DNA from: a virus
Length of the DNA: 24,638 nucleotides
Virus record (IMG/VR): IMGVR_UViG_3300000117_000235
Coordinates: 1 to 24,638 of that record
Direction: 5' to 3' (one strand)
Shown: positions 967-20,539 of the stretch, in pieces
Layout of the letters: each line of letters begins with the position of its first letter
Numbering within the stretch: position 1 is the stretch's first letter
The notes under the pieces: generated by a model
The model's database searches: none
What the model saw: the letters and a program-made list of their open reading frames with translations, nothing else
Told to the model about the DNA's origin: nothing
Program-made: the position numbers and the translations under genes

Positions 967-1725
967 ATGGCAAAGCCAAACGGTTTTATATTCTATCGTG
1001 GCGCGTCCGTTTTAGATGGTGCGCCAATTGTCGGCATCGCTACGCTTTCGAGCAGCAACATTAAAACCGGGCCGAATGGTCGCGGGAACATGGTGCAAAC
1101 GTGGATACTCCGCGCGGATGTTAATCCGATGCACGCAAGCAAAAACAAGCTTGACGCATCTATTTGCGGATCATGTCCGCACCGCCATAGTTTAGGTGGC
1201 GCGTGCTATGTCAACATCGGGCAGGCTCCGCTCGGCATTTATCGCGCATTTGAGCGCGGCAATTATCCGGACTATTCAGATAACCCGGAAGCGATCGCGG
1301 CAGCATTACATGGCCGATCGGTACGCATGGGCGCTTATGGTGACCCGGCCGCTATCCCGGTGCCAGTGTGGGAAAGCTTGTTAGTCGCGGCCGATGGCTG
1401 GACGGGCTATACCCACCAATCCCGGCATCCCAATTTTGACGCGGCATTGCTGCGTTACTGCATGGCTTCGGCCGATACCCCAAAGCAAGCGCAAAAGCTA
1501 AATGATATGGGCGCGCGCACGTTCCGCGTTAAAACCGAGTCAGCGGCGATGCTGCCCGGTGAGATTGAATGCCTATCCGATGCGAAGGGCATTAAATGTA
1601 TTGATTGCGGGTTATGTAACGGCCGCGACAATGCCGCGCCGAATATCGTGATAAACGTGCACGGATCACGCTCCACTAACTTTGAGCGCGCATTGGGTGG
1701 CGCTCAGTTAATCGCGGTCGCTTGA
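967..1725 (+). CDS. Cys-rich phage protein, DUF7227-like (252 aa)
   Basis: This matches a widespread phage family of unknown function that I recall by its signature blocks. They are an N-terminal GFIFYRG...DGAPIVGIAT, an ADVNPMHASK-like stretch, a CGSCPH motif (Cys67, Cys70) with Cys80 in GGACYVNIGQ, then VRMGAYGDPAAIPVPVW (about 119-135), GWTGYTHQ (about 144-151), RYCMAS (Cys165), and a C-terminal CIDCGLCNG cluster (Cys211, 214, 217) before the IVINVHG end. The paired Cys clusters suggest bound metal, either zinc or an Fe-S cluster. Ribosome binding site GGAG at about 953-956. Length is normal for the family. Other members sit among phage early genes. The enzymatic activity is not known to me and I do not assign one. 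Confidence 0.75.
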   Translation: MAKPNGFIFYRGASVLDGAPIVGIATLSSSNIKTGPNGRGNMVQTWILRADVNPMHASKNKLDASICGSCPHRHSLGGACYVNIGQAPLGIYRAFERGNYPDYSDNPEAIAAALHGRSVRMGAYGDPAAIPVPVWESLLVAADGWTGYTHQSRHPNFDAALLRYCMASADTPKQAQKLNDMGARTFRVKTESAAMLPGEIECLSDAKGIKCIDCGLCNGRDNAAPNIVINVHGSRSTNFERALGGAQLIAVA

Positions 1726-5470: not shown

Positions 5471-5525
5471 CGATTCCGTGGTGAATCAAAGTGCTCGGTT
5501 CCATCAACACAAAGAGGAGATGCTT

Positions 5526-5993
5526 GTGCCCGACTTCAAACAAGGGTCATTCAGGGGTGGTAGTAACCGGGAAAGCCCGGCAGAGACAATCAACAAACTC
5601 TCAAGCCTAGATAAGTTCAAGCGGGTGAAAGCCAATGAATACGTAGCCTGCTGCCCAGCCCACGACGATAACAGCCCGAGCCTGTCGATCACCGAGGCCA
5701 GCGACAAGATCCTTGTCTACTGCTTCTCTGGTTGCTCTCAGGAAGAGGTGCTGGATGCTTTAAAGGCGCGAGGGATGTGGACGGAAAAAGATGACCGCTG
5801 GATACAGAAAACGTGGTCAACTGATGAACTGGATTACATGATGTATTGGTGCTTGTGTTACCACGGCGCCGTCAGACGGGGGGAAAAATTAAAAGATATG
5901 GATCCAAATAAACTAGATCGCCGCGTAACGCTGTTGAAGGACTTTTCTCCAAAGCGATACAAGATTGTGGAGGAGGATGCGTACCGTGGATAA
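5526..5993 (+). CDS. Stand-alone primase-type zinc-finger protein (155 aa)
   Basis: GTG 5526 is preferred because AGAGGAG (5513-5519) is 7 bp upstream. ATG 5520 is too close to that site, and GTG 5478 lacks one. The protein carries the CHC2-like zinc ribbon of phage primase/helicase proteins: CPAHDDNSPSLSI (Cys43, His46) and YCFSGCSQEEVLDAL (Cys66, Cys70). This element recognises template DNA in primases. The TOPRIM or other catalytic primase core is absent. The remaining 80 residues (KDDRWIQKTWSTDELDYMMYW...) are helical with no acidic catalytic motif. It overlaps the RepA-like ATPase gene by 8 bp, so the pair may be a split form of fused zinc-finger/helicase proteins, with host DnaG or an unseen gene making primers. 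Confidence 0.75.
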   Translation: MPDFKQGSFRGGSNRESPAETINKLSSLDKFKRVKANEYVACCPAHDDNSPSLSITEASDKILVYCFSGCSQEEVLDALKARGMWTEKDDRWIQKTWSTDELDYMMYWCLCYHGAVRRGEKLKDMDPNKLDRRVTLLKDFSPKRYKIVEEDAYRG

Positions 5994-7164
5994 GACGGAA
6001 GATGAGTTAGACGAAAAGATCAAGGCGGTATACTCAAAATCAGACGAGGAGTTATATCAGGAGATGTCACAACAACTTCGATCAGGAACGGAGGCAGACA
6101 CAAACGTCAGGCCAATTATTAGCTCTCTGGCCCGACTTCATCAGGCCGCGACCAACCACCGCATTCAGGAGCTAGAAGAGCGCATCGCCAAGGAGCGCGA
6201 GGTTATCCCGAACATGGTCACGACCGGCACTGTTACGCTGGTTTACGCACCATCCGGGGCGGGCAAGACTGTCTGGATTCTAGGCAGTCTGTTTCAGTCC
6301 ATCACCAAAAACCTCATACGAGGCTCTGATGTCATCTATTTCAACGAGGATGACGGTGCTAGAGGCGTACTCCAGAAGGCCAAGATGGGCCAAAAGTACG
6401 GCATGACTATGATTACCTTGGCTAATTCAGGCGATCCGATGCTACGCACCACTAATGATGCACTGCATTTGCTCGATATGATCCGGATTGAAGGTCACGC
6501 AGAGGGCAAGATCATCATCTGCGACACCCTGAAGAAGTTTGCGCCAGTCTTAAACAAGGGCGATATGCGGGATATTCTTCATGTTTTCCGCCAGTTTGCG
6601 GCCGCTGGCGGCACTGTGATCCTTCTGGGCCACTGCAACAAGCACCGATCCTTAGAGGGAAAGCTGATTTATGAGGGTGTGGGCGATCTTAAGGCGGACG
6701 TAGACAATATGTACGGCTTAGACCCACTCAATGACAAGTATTCAGACTGGCAAGAGCTACTGGTAATTAACGAGAAGGATCGCAGTCAAGTCAGTTTTGA
6801 GGGTGGCTTCAAGTATCGCCAAACCGGGGCGCTTACTAACTACGAGGAATCTGTGGACTCTGTACAGTTTCTAGGACCAGAGGACATATCAGACCTCAAG
6901 GCCCGTCAGAAGGCTCAGATCAACGTAGGAAAAGCGCTAGCGAAATACGAGGATGAGTTCTGCTTCCTGCAAAGCGTGATGTCAGACGGCATGACACGCT
7001 CTCAGAAGGAGCTTATGGGCCTTTTGCACGACGAAGAGGTCAACCCCAACGGCTGTTCGCCAAAGACGCTACGAACCTGTATCGACCTTCTGCGCGGCAT
7101 CCATCTAAAAGTGGAGCGTAGGGGGACTTATGGGGCCAAATACTTCCGCTGGGAGACTGAATAG
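5986..7164 (+). CDS. RepA-like AAA/RecA-fold ATPase, putative replicative helicase (392 aa)
   Basis: GTG 5986 lies 9 bp after AGGAGG (5971-5976); ATG 5977 abuts that site and is less likely. An N-terminal charged helix region precedes a RecA-type core. Visible elements are Walker A APSGAGKT (residues 88-95), the acidic strand end IYFNEDDGARG (about 117-127), Walker B IIICD (176-180) and the sensor-like LGHCNKH (214-220). This layout matches AAA_25/RepA-like hexameric helicases of phages and plasmids such as RSF1010. A C-terminal segment (SQKELMGLL ... KTLRTCIDLLRG ... YFRWE) looks like a winged helix that may bind DNA. It likely unwinds the phage origin, with the overlapping zinc-finger gene. 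The origin candidate lies immediately downstream (7170-7295). A Sak4-like recombinase is the main alternative. Confidence 0.75.
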   Translation: MDKTEDELDEKIKAVYSKSDEELYQEMSQQLRSGTEADTNVRPIISSLARLHQAATNHRIQELEERIAKEREVIPNMVTTGTVTLVYAPSGAGKTVWILGSLFQSITKNLIRGSDVIYFNEDDGARGVLQKAKMGQKYGMTMITLANSGDPMLRTTNDALHLLDMIRIEGHAEGKIIICDTLKKFAPVLNKGDMRDILHVFRQFAAAGGTVILLGHCNKHRSLEGKLIYEGVGDLKADVDNMYGLDPLNDKYSDWQELLVINEKDRSQVSFEGGFKYRQTGALTNYEESVDSVQFLGPEDISDLKARQKAQINVGKALAKYEDEFCFLQSVMSDGMTRSQKELMGLLHDEEVNPNGCSPKTLRTCIDLLRGIHLKVERRGTYGAKYFRWETE

Positions 7165-7169
7165 TCAGG

Positions 7170-7214
7170 ATGCCCAGAATGCCCAGAATGCCCAGAATGC
7201 CTCTAATGCCCATG
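7170..7214 (+). repeat. Left array: five 9-bp units (ATGCCCANN)
   Basis: Units start at 7170, 7179, 7188, 7197 and 7206, exactly 9 bp apart. The first three are ATGCCCAGA, the fourth is degenerate (ATGCCTCTA), and the fifth is ATGCCCATG. The array lies just after the helicase stop codon and mirrors the array at 7251-7295. Together they form an imperfect long dyad. Confidence 0.8.
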
Positions 7215-7252
7215 TTTTAGGGGGCGGGTTAGGTCAGTGGGGGGGTATTTCT
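7213..7252 (+). other. G-rich spacer between the mirrored arrays
   Basis: The 40-bp spacer carries GGGGG, GGG and GGGGGGG runs on the plus strand, separated by 1 and 10 bases. That meets the pattern for a possible G-quadruplex (the last run can supply two G tracts). Together with the flanking dyad it could mark an unwinding or protein-loading site. Folding is inferred, not shown. Confidence 0.45.
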
Positions 7253-7295
7253 TGGGCATCAGGGGCAAACTGGGCAACGTGGGCAACGTGGGCAA
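7251..7295 (-). repeat. Right array: five 9-bp units in opposite orientation
   Basis: On the plus strand the cores TGGGCAT, GGGGCAA, TGGGCAA, TGGGCAA and TGGGCAA begin at 7253, 7262, 7271, 7280 and 7289, again exactly 9 bp apart. Read on the minus strand they are (A/T)TGCCCANN units. The unit matching the left array's degenerate fourth unit is also degenerate (TTGCCCC). Confidence 0.8.
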
Positions 7296-7319
7296 AGTCA
7301 TGAAATTAAAGGAGAAATC

Positions 7320-7547
7320 ATGAATCCGATGGATAAACAGGTTGGCGGGAGCCATTACAAGGACTTTAAGGTTCAGCCGCTGGAGTATGCGCTGGACAAT
7401 GGATTGGGGATCTGTGAGCACGCGGTCATCAAATACATCAGTCGGTGGAATCACCCCACCGGCGGAGGCATGAAGGACTTGCAAAAGGCCGCGCATTACA
7501 TTGAAATTCTTATGGAACGAGAAGGACACACAAATCCTTATGAGTGA
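7320..7547 (+). CDS. DUF3310 protein, T7 gp1.7-related (75 aa)
   Basis: The sequence DKQVGGSHYKDFKVQPLEYALDNGLGICEHAVIKYISRW ... GGGMKDLQKAAHYIEILMERE is a full DUF3310 domain. Diagnostic parts are GGSHY near the N-terminus, QP-x-E-Y, the conserved V-I-K-Y-x-x-R-W, and D-L-x-K-A-x-H-Y-I at the end. The family includes part of T7 gp1.7, a nucleotide kinase; the short forms found in many phages are of uncertain activity. Ribosome binding site AAAGGAG (7308-7314) before ATG 7320. It is the first gene after the repeat arrays and overlaps the next gene by 8 bp. A link to nucleotide metabolism is plausible. Confidence 0.85.
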   Translation: MNPMDKQVGGSHYKDFKVQPLEYALDNGLGICEHAVIKYISRWNHPTGGGMKDLQKAAHYIEILMEREGHTNPYE

Positions 7548-7797: not shown

Positions 7798-8958
7798 ATG
7801 GAACATCCGCTACTAGAGTTTTGCACCACAGAAAAACAACTAACAGTTATACATATGTCAGCAGTCCAAGGGCTATCTCAGTATGAGATTGGCAAAAGGC
7901 TGAATATGTCACGGAGCGCAGTCAGAGATCACATCAAGGCGGTTAGGGACAAAGCCGCAAGGCGTGGGTATAGCCCAAACCATGATTGGAAAAACCCCGT
8001 ACCTGACGGTCATAAGATTAAAGGCGTATCAACCTTTTACGACGAAGCTGGCCTGCCAGTGCGTCAGTGGGTTAAGTCCCAGACTGATGAGCAACGCCAG
8101 TTTGAAATACTGGTAGAGCGTCTAGAGAATGCTCAATCTGGTCTGCCCAAGTTTAAAGTCACTGCAGCACCTAAAAGTTGCGACGAAAACCTGCTTACAT
8201 TGCTGACTATCACTGACTTTCACCTCGGCATGTACGCTTACGAGGCTGAAACTGGCGATGATTGGGATGTAAATATAGCTCGGGATGTATTCCTAAACTC
8301 GATCAACGACATGATTAAGGCTGCGCCCAAGGCAGAAACCGGAATGTTGTGCCAGCTTGGAGACTTTCTCCATTGGGATGGCATCCTCAGTGTAACTCCG
8401 CAGTCCGGGCATATACTGGATGCTGACACCCGCTATGGAAAGTTGGTTGATCTGTCTATGTCGGTAATGACAGAAGCCGTAAGAATGATGCTCAAAAAAT
8501 TCAGCAAGGTTGTTGTTGTATCTGCTGAAGGAAATCACGACATTTCTGGCAGCATCTGGTTAAGAAAGCACCTCAAACACCTGTTCGAAAACGAGCCACG
8601 CCTGACAATTATTGACAATGATTTCCCTTACTACGCCTACCTACACGGCGAAACAATGCTGGCGTTTCACCACGGCCACAAGGTAAAGCTAGCTAACCTA
8701 CATAAACTGTTTGCAAGTGAGCCGCGATTCAGGGAAATGTGGGGGCAGGCTAACTACACCTATATCCATACCGGACACTATCACCATGAGCGTGTGATAG
8801 AGGACGGTGGCGCTATTGCCGAGATGCATCCAACACTTAGCGGCAGGGATGCCTATGCGGCCCGTGGAGGCTGGGTATCAAAACGTGGAGCCAAGGTCAT
8901 TACCTACGATAAAAACGCAGGAGAGGTCGCTAGGATAACCGTAAGGCCGCGCACATGA
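7798..8958 (+). CDS. HTH-metallophosphoesterase fusion (386 aa)
   Basis: The N-terminus has a LuxR/sigma-4-type helix-turn-helix at about residues 10-52 (LTVIHMSAVQGLSQYEIGKRL, then NMSRSAVRDHIKAV). A linker of about 85 residues leads to a calcineurin-like phosphoesterase. Its metal-binding motifs appear in order: DFH (140-142), GD (188-189), GNHD (245-248), HHGH (291-294) and GHYHH (326-330). All usual metal ligands are present, so it should be an active two-metal enzyme. Relatives occur in marine phages. The substrate may be DNA ends (Mre11/SbcD-like) or a phosphoester metabolite. The HTH suggests action at DNA, or self-regulation. GGGGGA precedes ATG 7798. It overlaps the next gene (ATGA). 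Confidence 0.85.
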   Translation: MEHPLLEFCTTEKQLTVIHMSAVQGLSQYEIGKRLNMSRSAVRDHIKAVRDKAARRGYSPNHDWKNPVPDGHKIKGVSTFYDEAGLPVRQWVKSQTDEQRQFEILVERLENAQSGLPKFKVTAAPKSCDENLLTLLTITDFHLGMYAYEAETGDDWDVNIARDVFLNSINDMIKAAPKAETGMLCQLGDFLHWDGILSVTPQSGHILDADTRYGKLVDLSMSVMTEAVRMMLKKFSKVVVVSAEGNHDISGSIWLRKHLKHLFENEPRLTIIDNDFPYYAYLHGETMLAFHHGHKVKLANLHKLFASEPRFREMWGQANYTYIHTGHYHHERVIEDGGAIAEMHPTLSGRDAYAARGGWVSKRGAKVITYDKNAGEVARITVRPRT

Positions 8959-17114: not shown

Positions 17115-17762
17115 CTACGGTGTATAAAAGATGGTTTCTTCAGGATGCTTTTGTGCATCCATAGCAATTGCGTCAGATAGGTATCTATCCGCAATAGCAA
17201 AGTATTCTGGTGTAGACGTACCGCCGGTCTCGCCCCGCTCTCTAGCAAGCAAAGCTACCGCCATGTGAATAACAGGCTGGCTAGGAATAGCTAAGGTATC
17301 TGAGTCAGATGCAAGCGGTACGTTTCGATTAACTATCTTGACCTTAAGCGAGTAAACACCGTCAGGCTTGGGATATACGTCAATCTGTGTATCACCGTTG
17401 GAATCTACGCCGTTATAAGTAAAGTATTTAGGTGCGCCAGATACTGGGTTGTTTACAAAGAACTCGTTATCAAACCATGCTTGTGTCTGATACTGCAGCT
17501 CGCAGTTAGACGTATCGTTAATAATCCTAAAGACTTTGCCCTTGTCACCACTTCCTGCTAGTGAATAGGTGTAGTCATCTGCTACTGTCGAAATCGTAAG
17601 CGTTTGTCGTAGAGCAGACCAATCCCAAGCTGTTTCAACTAATTCTTTGGCATCGTTAATAAAATCACTAACCATCTTGCTGTATGCATTTGTAGCAACA
17701 GTCGTAACCTCGTCCTCACGAAGTCTACGTAATACATTGTTTACTAAGTTTAAATATGTCAT
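17115..17762 (-). CDS. Head-to-tail adaptor, P22 gp4 / tail-tube A-like (215 aa)
   Basis: The protein [19 protein letters not shown] ... SDFINDAKELVETAWDWSALRQT has an N-terminal helical pair followed by strands (YTYSLAGSGD, FRIINDTSNCELQYQTQAWFDNEF, YFTYNGVDSNGDTQIDVYPKPDGVYSLKVKIVNRN). It ends in a helix (PVIHMAVALLARERGE). This matches the adaptor that connects the portal to the tail nozzle in podoviruses. It directly precedes the nozzle gene, as expected. Its ATG overlaps the stop of the 926-residue gene (ATGA), so expression is coupled. The head genes it would meet are outside the window. Confidence 0.75.
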   Translation of the reverse strand: MTYLNLVNNVLRRLREDEVTTVATNAYSKMVSDFINDAKELVETAWDWSALRQTLTISTVADDYTYSLAGSGDKGKVFRIINDTSNCELQYQTQAWFDNEFFVNNPVSGAPKYFTYNGVDSNGDTQIDVYPKPDGVYSLKVKIVNRNVPLASDSDTLAIPSQPVIHMAVALLARERGETGGTSTPEYFAIADRYLSDAIAMDAQKHPEETIFYTP

Positions 17763-20539
17763 GCCACACCCTTAGTGTCAGTAAGCATTCTGTTTGGCTG
17801 AGAGAGATCACGCATCAACTGCTCAAGCTCTCTGTTGTAATCTTTTTGCTGAAACGACAACTCTGAAGGCTGCAGTCGCTCGTAGCTAATACCTGTCATA
17901 AATGGGCTAAACGCAGGCGCGTCTCCGCCACCGCCAAAACCAGCTAATAAACCCGCGCCTAAGCCAAGGCCATCTCCCATTCCATCGCCATCGCCATCGC
18001 CATCGCCATCGCCGTCACCGTCACCGTCACCGTCTCCTTTTCCATCTCCAGATCCGGAACCTTCACCAGTGCCCTGACCTGTTCCTGACCCTGTGCCAGT
18101 GCCAGTGCCATTACCTCCGCCTGTGCCGCTTTCGCCGCCATTTCCACCTGCATCGCCACCAGTTCCCGCTCCTCCAGCAGCTCCGCCAACTCCGGCACCT
18201 GCTCCGGTACCAGAACCAGCTCCTGCACCTACTCCGGCACCAGAACCAGCTCCTGATCCTGCGCCTGCACCTGCTCCGGCACCAGCTCCGGCTCCTGCTC
18301 CGGCACCAGCTCCGGCTCCTGCTCCGGCACCAGCGCCACCACCGCCGCCACCAGCGCCACCAGCGCCACCACCGCCGCCACCTCCTCCAGCAGTAGTAGC
18401 GTCACCACTATCTCCTGCGCCCGCTCCAGAGTTAACGACATCTCCTGCACCGCTACTGCTACTATCATCAGAGCCGTCACCGCCTAAAATGACTGACAGG
18501 TCAAGGCCGCCTCCTTCTAAACAACCACCCTTGACAACCGAGGTTGTCCTACCGCCTTTACCATCTGCGGTAACTACTATTTTGTCGCCATTAGCTTGGC
18601 ACTCAGAAGCTAACTCTGTACCCGCTGCGGGATTAGATGCGGCTCCGCCGCCGCCAGTTGTAACGGGGTCTTCTGTTTTTGTGGTGTCTAGCCCATCATC
18701 ATCAGGGTCTGGATCTTGACCGCCAAATACATAATCACTGGTATATGTTCCATTTTCCCAATCAATATCAATGACAACGCCAGTGCCTTCTATCTGAACC
18801 CTAGACGTTCCAGAAGTGCCCCACTCGCCATTTTGATCGACAAGAATAAATCCACCAAATACGCCTTCAGGATCATTTTCCCAAGGATTTGATTCAGTCC
18901 AAACAATTGGCGATCCCTCACCAGTGGAGGTAGTTTCTATTCCTGTAGAGCCAGATGGGGTTTCAACACCGCCAGTTCCGCCAGAACCTCCACCTCCACC
19001 GGGAAGACTTGCAGCATCTCCAGCAGTACTACCTGCGTCAGCCCCGCCTGCATCAGCCCCGCCTGCGTCAGCCCCGCCACCTGCTCCGCCTGTAGATGAG
19101 CCTCCACCGCCACCGCTTGCACCGCCGCCATCTTCTGTCGTTGGCTCTATATTTGGTAAGGTTACTCTAGCGCCATACATTCCGGGAACAATCTGGTATT
19201 CAGTGCCGCTTGCTTGGTCAATAACAACATTGCGAGCTGTGTCTAAAATATATCCAGCCGGCAGATTAAAAGCGTTATAAGTAGTAGTGCCGTCATCATT
19301 TTCAATACCGACAGCCTGTTGGCCGCCATCAAAATCAGTGCCAGCAAGATTGACAATAAGCCCGCTTTGAGCTTCAGTAAATATCCTGTCAATTTCACTC
19401 TCTAGCGCAGCCCCTCCACCTGTTCCGCCAGCCATCAACCCCGGAAGCCCATCCGCAACAGCTTCAACTGCCGCACTTAAAGTCTCGCTTGACCGAATAA
19501 CATCTTTAACGCCTTTTGGTAGCTGAGCAAGAACGTCCGATCCAGTAACATTAAGACCTGATGCAAGCGCCTGCCCTGCCGCGCCTGTAGCAAGACTAAT
19601 AACAGCCGCCTTTGTTAAGGCTATAGCGTAGTCAGCAAAACTAGCGTGGTCATCGATCTTAATTGTTTTTTGATACCCAGAACCCGTCCACTTAAACTGA
19701 TCGCCATCGTCGTTATAAACAGTGTCTTGAATGCCCCACTTCTGAAGTATGTCAGCGCCTTCGTTCATCCACTGCTGATAGTCACTTTGACGGGCATTAC
19801 TGATATCTTGGCTTATTTTTTCTGTAACTTCTTCTTTTTCCCCCGGCCTAAATCTAAGGTCTTCACCTTCAATAACAGCAGATTCAATATCGCTACGTCG
19901 ATACTCAGGATTAGCAAGCATCCAGTCTGCTGACTGAACCCATTCCTGAGAATCTTTTATATAGCCCATGTAGTTTTCAAACGACCCAAACTGCTGCTGT
20001 AACTGCCCAGAGTCTTCAAACTCTTGCAGAAGCTCGCTCTCAGTCATCTGTACAAGCTGTGATGTCTCATTAGACTCAGCAGTGCCGCCAAAAGGACTGC
20101 TAGCATCACCTTTAGCTCGACTGGTAATAACCGTGTAACTGCCTTGGTCATCAGTATCGACCACAACACCTTCCGCAGTAGTGTCTTCTGCCGTAGTGTC
20201 TTCCAACATATCCATTTGATCTAAACGAAACTGCTGAGCCTCATTTGAAATAGCAATGTTGTATTCAACGTCTTCTAAGCTAACGCCACCTTCTTTGATG
20301 GAATCAACCCAATAGTTTAAGCCCGACTTGTCTGCATCACGGCCTAAGTATTCGTTATATAAATTATTAACTGCTTGAACAGTTTTTGCTTCATTTGAAA
20401 TGCTAATGTTGTATTCAACATCAGCTAAAGTAGCGCCGCCTTGGTTAATAGAGTTAAGCCAATAATTTGCGCCTGCATCATCTGCATCACGGCCTAAATA
20501 CTGTTGGTACAGGGAATCAATCTGTTCGCGTGTTGCCAT
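17759..20539 (-). CDS. DUF4214 protein with Gly/Ala/Asp-rich repeats (926 aa)
   Basis: Two DUF4214 units repeat with a 50-residue period (about 9-50 and 59-100), each containing YLGRDAD, a Gly and the NYW core, then EYNI-ISNEA. A mixed globular part of about 370 residues follows. Then come low-complexity stretches: [11 protein letters not shown] and GGADA x3 (about 470-525), a Gly/Ala run of about 100 residues (near 710-810), and alternating GD (near 835-852). A globular C-terminus ([23 protein letters not shown]...) ends [12 protein letters not shown]4214 often occurs in large secreted or virion-associated repeat proteins. The gene lies between holin-like and adaptor genes, so it is probably a virion component, perhaps an extended fibre or flexible linker. 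Low complexity in all of this is directly visible. Confidence 0.7.
17982..18035 (-). repeat. Tandem 6-bp repeat (nine units)
   Basis: On the plus strand five CCATCG units (17982-18011) are followed by CCGTCA x3 and CCGTCT. They encode the alternating Gly-Asp tract of the 926-residue protein. The same amino acids are spelled with different third bases in blocks, typical of slippage expansion. Confidence 0.85.
18185..18400 (-). repeat. Gly/Ala-coding low-complexity repeat region
   Basis: A (Gly-Ala)n-type tract with short repeats, including 24-bp units starting at 18269, 18293 and 18317 (the third partial). The opposite strand is therefore open as a Pro-rich frame, which I treat as a shadow. 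Unequal slippage or recombination would readily alter its length. Confidence 0.8.
19032..19076 (-). repeat. Three 15-bp tandem repeats coding GGADA
   Basis: Three copies of a 15-bp unit (CCTGCGTCAGCCCCG on the plus strand, the middle copy with one substitution) encode GGADA x3 inside the Gly-rich part of the 926-residue protein. Confidence 0.85.

Follow-up and report, generated by a model that had tools for sequence, protein, structure and literature searches.

What is the function of the two mirrored arrays of 9-bp repeats that follow the ATPase gene of this marine phage, and which protein reads them? The window (the whole stretch of DNA that was analysed, 24,638 bases) is the record of an uncultivated podovirus-like marine phage. 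Its RepA-like AAA_25 ATPase gene, the proposed initiator helicase (5965–7164, plus strand), begins at the TTG start of a mechanical open reading frame, and the true start is uncertain. The array sits between the ATPase stop (7164) and the start (7320) of the first gene past it, which encodes a DUF3310 protein (7320–7547, plus strand). Apart from a mechanical open reading frame on the opposite strand, this gap (7165–7319) is non-coding. It holds ten 9-bp units, mirrored and in a single 9-bp register (7170–7214 and 7251–7295), with five bases between the ATPase stop and the first unit.

Arm 1 (7170–7214, plus strand) consists of five 9-bp units of the form ATGCCCANN, with ATGCCCAGA at 7170, 7179 and 7188, ATGCCTCTA at 7197 and ATGCCCATG at 7206; the fourth unit (7197–7205) is weak. 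Arm 2 (7251–7295, minus strand) has five units in the reversed orientation, with TGGGCA cores at 7253, 7271, 7280 and 7289 and a weak GGGGCA core at 7262 (unit 7260–7268). As an inverted repeat, the arms extend over 42 nt, are 76% complementary and are separated by 40 nt. Tandem-repeat detection also picked up each array independently. The initial annotation was correct in its coordinates, in the mirroring of the weak fourth unit and in how well the arms match. In dinucleotide-preserving shuffles of the whole window, a mirrored array never appeared (0 of 300), and three or more in-register copies of any 6-mer appeared only once in 300. The mirrored 9-bp arrays are real. Their 9-bp period, which is the same in the window and its relatives, does not meet the period of about 17–22 bp of iteron plasmid origins. 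We also observed that a weak unit beside the innermost one (7197–7205 and 7260–7268 in the window) recurs in both arms of many relatives (TGCCTC, TGTCCT, TACCTC), a layout feature for which we have no explanation.

The centre between the arms (7215–7250, no strand assigned) is composed of a T tract, GGGGGCGGG, and then GGGGGGG and TATTT. Relatives keep this outline, with a T tract plus a run of G or C conserved on each side. The orientation of the runs flips among relatives (G..C in 24 distinct centres, G..G in 17 and C..C in 10), and a further 8 distinct centres were left unclassified by the script, examples of which are compact G..C hairpins. The window centre is G-rich with short T tracts rather than AT-rich, and the centre of a distant relative described below (L127) is AT-rich. 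When single-stranded, the centres could conceivably form a hairpin or a quadruplex and, in some relatives, a terminator, though their role is unexplained.

Near-complete relatives of the phage are 32–36 kb long and encode a terminase large subunit, a portal protein, NinB-like and NinG-like proteins and one AAA_25 ATPase; several also carry an ArdC-like antirestriction protein. Among the shared genes of these relatives that we examined, we recognised no DNA polymerase. Neither was a second replicative helicase or initiator recognised among the genes common to them, many of which have no known function. Close phage relatives were not found by megablast among 50,697 phage records, and the only match to the helicase among phage records was to Campylobacter phage CAM-P21, at 24% identity. 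The search for a host, one scan of genome contigs, returned only a 3-kb fragment of a gammaproteobacterial metagenome-assembled genome. The upstream neighbour of the ATPase gene codes for a CHC2 zinc-ribbon protein with a DnaG-type zinc finger only (5478–5993, plus strand), which is present in only 22 of the fetched loci. A phrog_2554 protein (window 967–1725) was considered as an array binder, since some other phages have relatives of it close to arrays, and rejected because it was present in only 5 of the 30 records tested. Elsewhere in the window we noted an exonuclease-type protein (phrog_704; 7798–8958) with an N-terminal helix-turn-helix domain like sigma-70 region 4, and, inside a minus-strand gene for a 926-residue protein (17759–20539), long stretches of tandem repeats with periods of 3, 6, 12 and 30 bp (17982–18382).

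The only Pfam family matched in the ATPase was AAA_25 (PF13481). Its RecA-fold ATPase domain spans 6142–6864 (plus strand; residues about 60–300). Structural matches of this domain to RadA, RecA, Rad51, DnaB, RepA and T7 gp4 were tied near Z 15. For example, the model aligned to RSF1010 RepA (1olo) with Z 15.0 and an rmsd of 3.0 over 186 residues, level with structures of DnaB, RadA and RecA. Sequence searches of the PDB with the helicase gave nothing significant, and RSF1010 RepA appeared only at E 0.66. We infer from sequence context, without data on helicase activity, that the protein is a helicase and not a recombinase because it lies among replication genes, is present in every relative and has invariant K271 and R273.

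A search of viral contigs with the ATPase yielded 134 relatives, the best 80 of which were fetched. Among about 110 fetched loci with ATPase relatives, mirrored arrays follow the gene in essentially all of those with enough downstream sequence. Relatives with the same gene order and no repeats, which the initial annotation had named as grounds for refutation, were not encountered. The arrays come directly after the ATPase gene in most relatives and after one inserted gene in others (among them L045, L059, L061, L066, L067 and L075). Even a distant helicase with 26% identity (L127) has mirrored TTGCCCAAC units immediately 3' of its stop codon. Two-plus-two mirrored TGCCCA units at the family spacing were found in 41 stretches of viral contigs, and 35 of these came from the AAA_25 helicase family, a count that includes one locus (L160) assigned by its downstream genes. 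The number of units per arm varies from two to six, so five is not universal, and the genes downstream of the array differ between relatives.

Several side observations concern this variable neighbourhood. In four relatives (L006, L014, L016 and L019), the gene that begins directly after the array looks, on inspection by eye, like one for a DNA C5-methyltransferase. With such genes downstream, and elsewhere an extra gene between helicase and array, the array region looks like an insertion hotspot. One record (L074; 58,241 bp) greatly exceeds its relatives in length and contains two AAA_25 genes; it may be a joined contig or two phages.

Mirrored 9-bp TGCCCA arrays were also seen in unrelated phages that lack the AAA_25 helicase (L173:2503–2617, L222:3819–3914, L226:2116–2207, L231:3038–3147, L233:10759–10873 and L235:1810–1924). 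Some of them lie beside VapE/DUF5906-type helicases and some have AT-rich centres. Similar TGCCCA arrays are also present in phages with P22-type portals and no AAA_25 gene. A search with a winged-helix profile found no homologue in the unrelated array-bearing phages. Intergenic TGCCCA arrays with the 9-bp period were noted in another twelve loci (L082, L106, L108, L113, L117, L125, L154, L162, L183, L188, L193 and L195), and in several of these the array is upstream of terminase genes (L113 has a P22-type portal) and next to RusA or phrog_2554 genes. These intergenic arrays might be origins, operators or packaging sites.

The candidate reader of the units is the C-terminal domain of the ATPase itself (6946–7155, plus strand; residues about 328–397). 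It is predicted to fold as a winged helix (helix, helix, recognition helix and wing) with a pLDDT of about 90. Its best structural match was 7p6f (Z 9.1, 2.4 Å over 76 residues), and many ArsR/PadR-type regulators scored just below. The fold by itself proves no function; the case for a reader rests on its co-variation with the units, which fall into a TGCCCA class, a T[C/A]CCCA class and a looser class that has a GCCC core but varies in its flanks. Residue 370 in the recognition helix (codon 7072–7074, plus strand) is arginine in the window. Among distinct pairings of helicase and array, arginine goes with G at core position 2 (xGCCC units) in all 48 cases, and leucine takes its place in all 5 with T[C/A]CCC units, where core position 2 is mainly C and A. 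Only positions 344, 351 and 370 separate this Leu class completely from all others. The looser class is set apart by residues 363 in the recognition helix and 389–391 in the wing, more weakly by 373 in the recognition helix, and by some residues outside both. We infer from this co-variation, in the absence of binding data, that the winged helix of the ATPase likely recognises the units. The change from Arg to Leu at position 370 could have been a single event spread by recombination.

The reader domain and the arrays also move between genomes. ATPase domains up to 100% identical are found in genomes whose winged helices are 60–84% identical and whose units differ. In the clearest pairs, the differing segment runs from about 200–250 bases before the helicase stop to about 80–150 bases after it, or about 330 bp. 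The backgrounds around it are mostly 90–100% identical, and in these pairs identity recovers just past the arrays. The clearest example is the L046/L041 pair; L069/L073, L053/L064 (with one extra gene in L053) and the window/L007 are others, and the L059/L037 pair differs further downstream too. Mapped onto a tree built from ATPase DNA, the three unit classes need 8 changes, which indicates several exchanges with protein class and array class always moving together. The Leu class alone needs 5 changes on this tree, 4 of them forced by the starred branches. In our reading, the coding end for the winged helix and the array that it matches make up a single exchangeable specificity cassette of about 330 bp.

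Physical adjacency complicates the interpretation of these exchanges. Much of the co-variation pattern is expected because the domain and the array are neighbours and are transferred together, and part of it may therefore be hitch-hiking. The chief case for which linkage does not account is L007, which has a winged helix and an arm 1 of another type and, from the inner flank of arm 2 onwards, sequence like that of the window. Its arm 2 differs from that of the window at 11 of 46 bases; the five GGGC cores, 20 bases in all, are untouched (P = 6e-4), and the changed flanks fit the looser class that accompanies its new winged helix. The pattern is best explained by selection exerted by the new reader, although gene conversion from an unsampled arm is not excluded.

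We consider it likely, with a probability of roughly 0.8, that phage replication starts at the arrays, which would make up the origin or its core, and that they are read by the C-terminal winged helix of the helicase. What the sequences establish are the arrays, their conservation beside the helicase, the modelled fold, the matched changes in protein and site and the cassette exchanges; physical binding, the loading of rings and activity as an origin are inference. In the proposed mechanism, helicase subunits would bind successive 9-bp units via their winged helices, and the oppositely oriented arms would assemble two helicase rings, one per arm, facing opposite ways. The centre between the rings would then be opened for bidirectional replication with the host primase and polymerase. 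We do not claim a one-to-one match of units with six subunits because the units per arm vary from two to six. The initial annotation had proposed either an origin or a cooperative regulator site, bound by the ATPase or the zinc-finger protein, and had allowed for a filament or an RNA form as well. The conservation of the arrays after the helicase gene and the co-variation of unit and winged helix support the origin side, and the ATPase is the better candidate for the binder. The GC-skew check that it suggested was uninformative, with no change in skew at the array; third-position skew around the array was inconclusive or even opposite to that of a simple bidirectional origin. The presence of similar TGCCCA arrays in unrelated phages without the AAA_25 helicase also counts against the origin reading, as does the G-rich rather than AT-rich centre of the window array.

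The arrays could instead be an operator to which the winged helix binds to regulate the following early genes or its own operon. Their position between genes of a single early cluster on the same strand is consistent with this alternative, and winged helices of such a fold are best known from transcriptional regulators. However, a sigma-70-like promoter was looked for near the array and none was found. The site is also 3' rather than 5' of the helicase gene, it precedes genes that vary among relatives, and fusion of the winged helix to a ring ATPase favours helicase loading, all of which make an operator unlikely. Another possibility is that a different protein, from host or phage, reads the arrays and that the helicase C-terminus is linked to them only by hitch-hiking. 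The domain adjoins the arrays, so recombination moves both, and the unrelated phages with similar arrays show that such sites occur without this helicase. Yet the residues that separate the classes include the recognition helix and the wing, the arm 2 substitutions in L007 all fall outside the cores, the core shifts track Arg370/Leu370 without exception and the distant L127 helicase also has arrays right after its gene. We therefore regard a separate reader as improbable.

Least plausible to us is a structured RNA or DNA hairpin in which the pairing of the arms is what counts, be it a stem-loop origin of the pRN1 type or an element for mRNA stability or termination. Folding is far stronger than in shuffles on both strands (z of -4.5 and -7.6), and the centre of many relatives could form a GC-rich hairpin, followed in some by T residues. 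But any mirrored array necessarily folds. Positions deviating from a genome's own consensus were compensated in 12% of cases in hairpin register and in 7% after a shift by one unit; agreement between the outer units was the same in and out of register. Compensation is thus barely better in register, which argues that pairing is not what is conserved. Furthermore, the core of the units is retained, whereas their flanking bases do not match between the arms. The RNA form that the initial annotation had entertained is therefore unsupported by the compensation test.

An origin read by the helicase's own winged helix has parallels in several known systems. The Rep protein of staphylococcal SaPI elements binds iterons downstream of its gene via its C-terminal domain, apparently as two hexamers (PMC7581432). 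Like SaPI Rep and SCCmec Cch2 (PMC7581432), the window has short repeats directly downstream of a helicase gene and a proposed C-terminal reader, although its winged helix is modelled and co-varying, without binding data. SaPI Rep and Cch2 belong to the DUF927 or Primase_Cterm/D5 families, whereas the window ATPase is an AAA_25 protein with a RecA/RepA-like fold; this difference in helicase core is why we do not place it in the SaPI Rep families. The SaPI origin has two sets of repeats flanking an AT-rich region. Unlike those of SaPI Rep and Cch2, the 9-bp units in the window abut one another and form two mirrored arms on either side of a G/C-rich centre. The alpha protein of phage P4 likewise binds origin repeats with a winged helix (cited in PMC4234260) but carries a primase, and no primase is fused to the window helicase.

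A precedent for the exchanges is the RepA/ori module of the PLE satellites of Vibrio cholerae (PMC8263062), in which DNA-binding domain and origin were also swapped repeatedly while the rest of the protein was conserved. PLE RepA, however, is a RepA_N initiator of a satellite with three semi-palindromic iterons of about 30 bp, whereas the window protein is the phage's own helicase and its units are 9 bp long. RSF1010 RepA, a hexameric replicative helicase, shares the RecA fold, but initiation in RSF1010 is split among three polypeptides (PMC4234260) and the window helicase has a fused DNA-binding domain. As in pRN1 (PMC4234260), the proposed origin follows a replication gene, and the protein encoded by that gene ends in a winged helix. 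Plasmids of the pRN1 type keep a stem-loop without sequence conservation; the window family, by contrast, keeps the unit sequence and not the pairing, with no clear compensation between partner units. The proposed system would resemble these initiator helicases, P4 alpha and the modular PLE origins but combine a RecA-fold helicase with contiguous 9-bp sites.

Replicative helicases related to DnaB and RepA ordinarily depend on a distinct initiator or loader. A bolder reading, which we rate slightly less likely than not, is that a RecA-fold ring helicase of the RepA/DnaB type acts as its own origin-recognition protein. Two opposed rings would load on the mirrored arrays, and specificity would have been switched repeatedly by exchange of the cassette of about 330 bp, perhaps to escape satellites or defences that target the origin. 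In the cholera satellites, which face an origin-directed nuclease, selection on origin specificity has been proposed (PMC8263062), and the repeated exchange of reader domain and origin in near-identical phages points to such selection here. If the origin reading is true, a single protein would be both ring helicase and origin reader, and, with its natural series of matched variants of protein and site, it would offer a compact system in which to study how helicases load and to read the code that links one winged helix to its DNA site.
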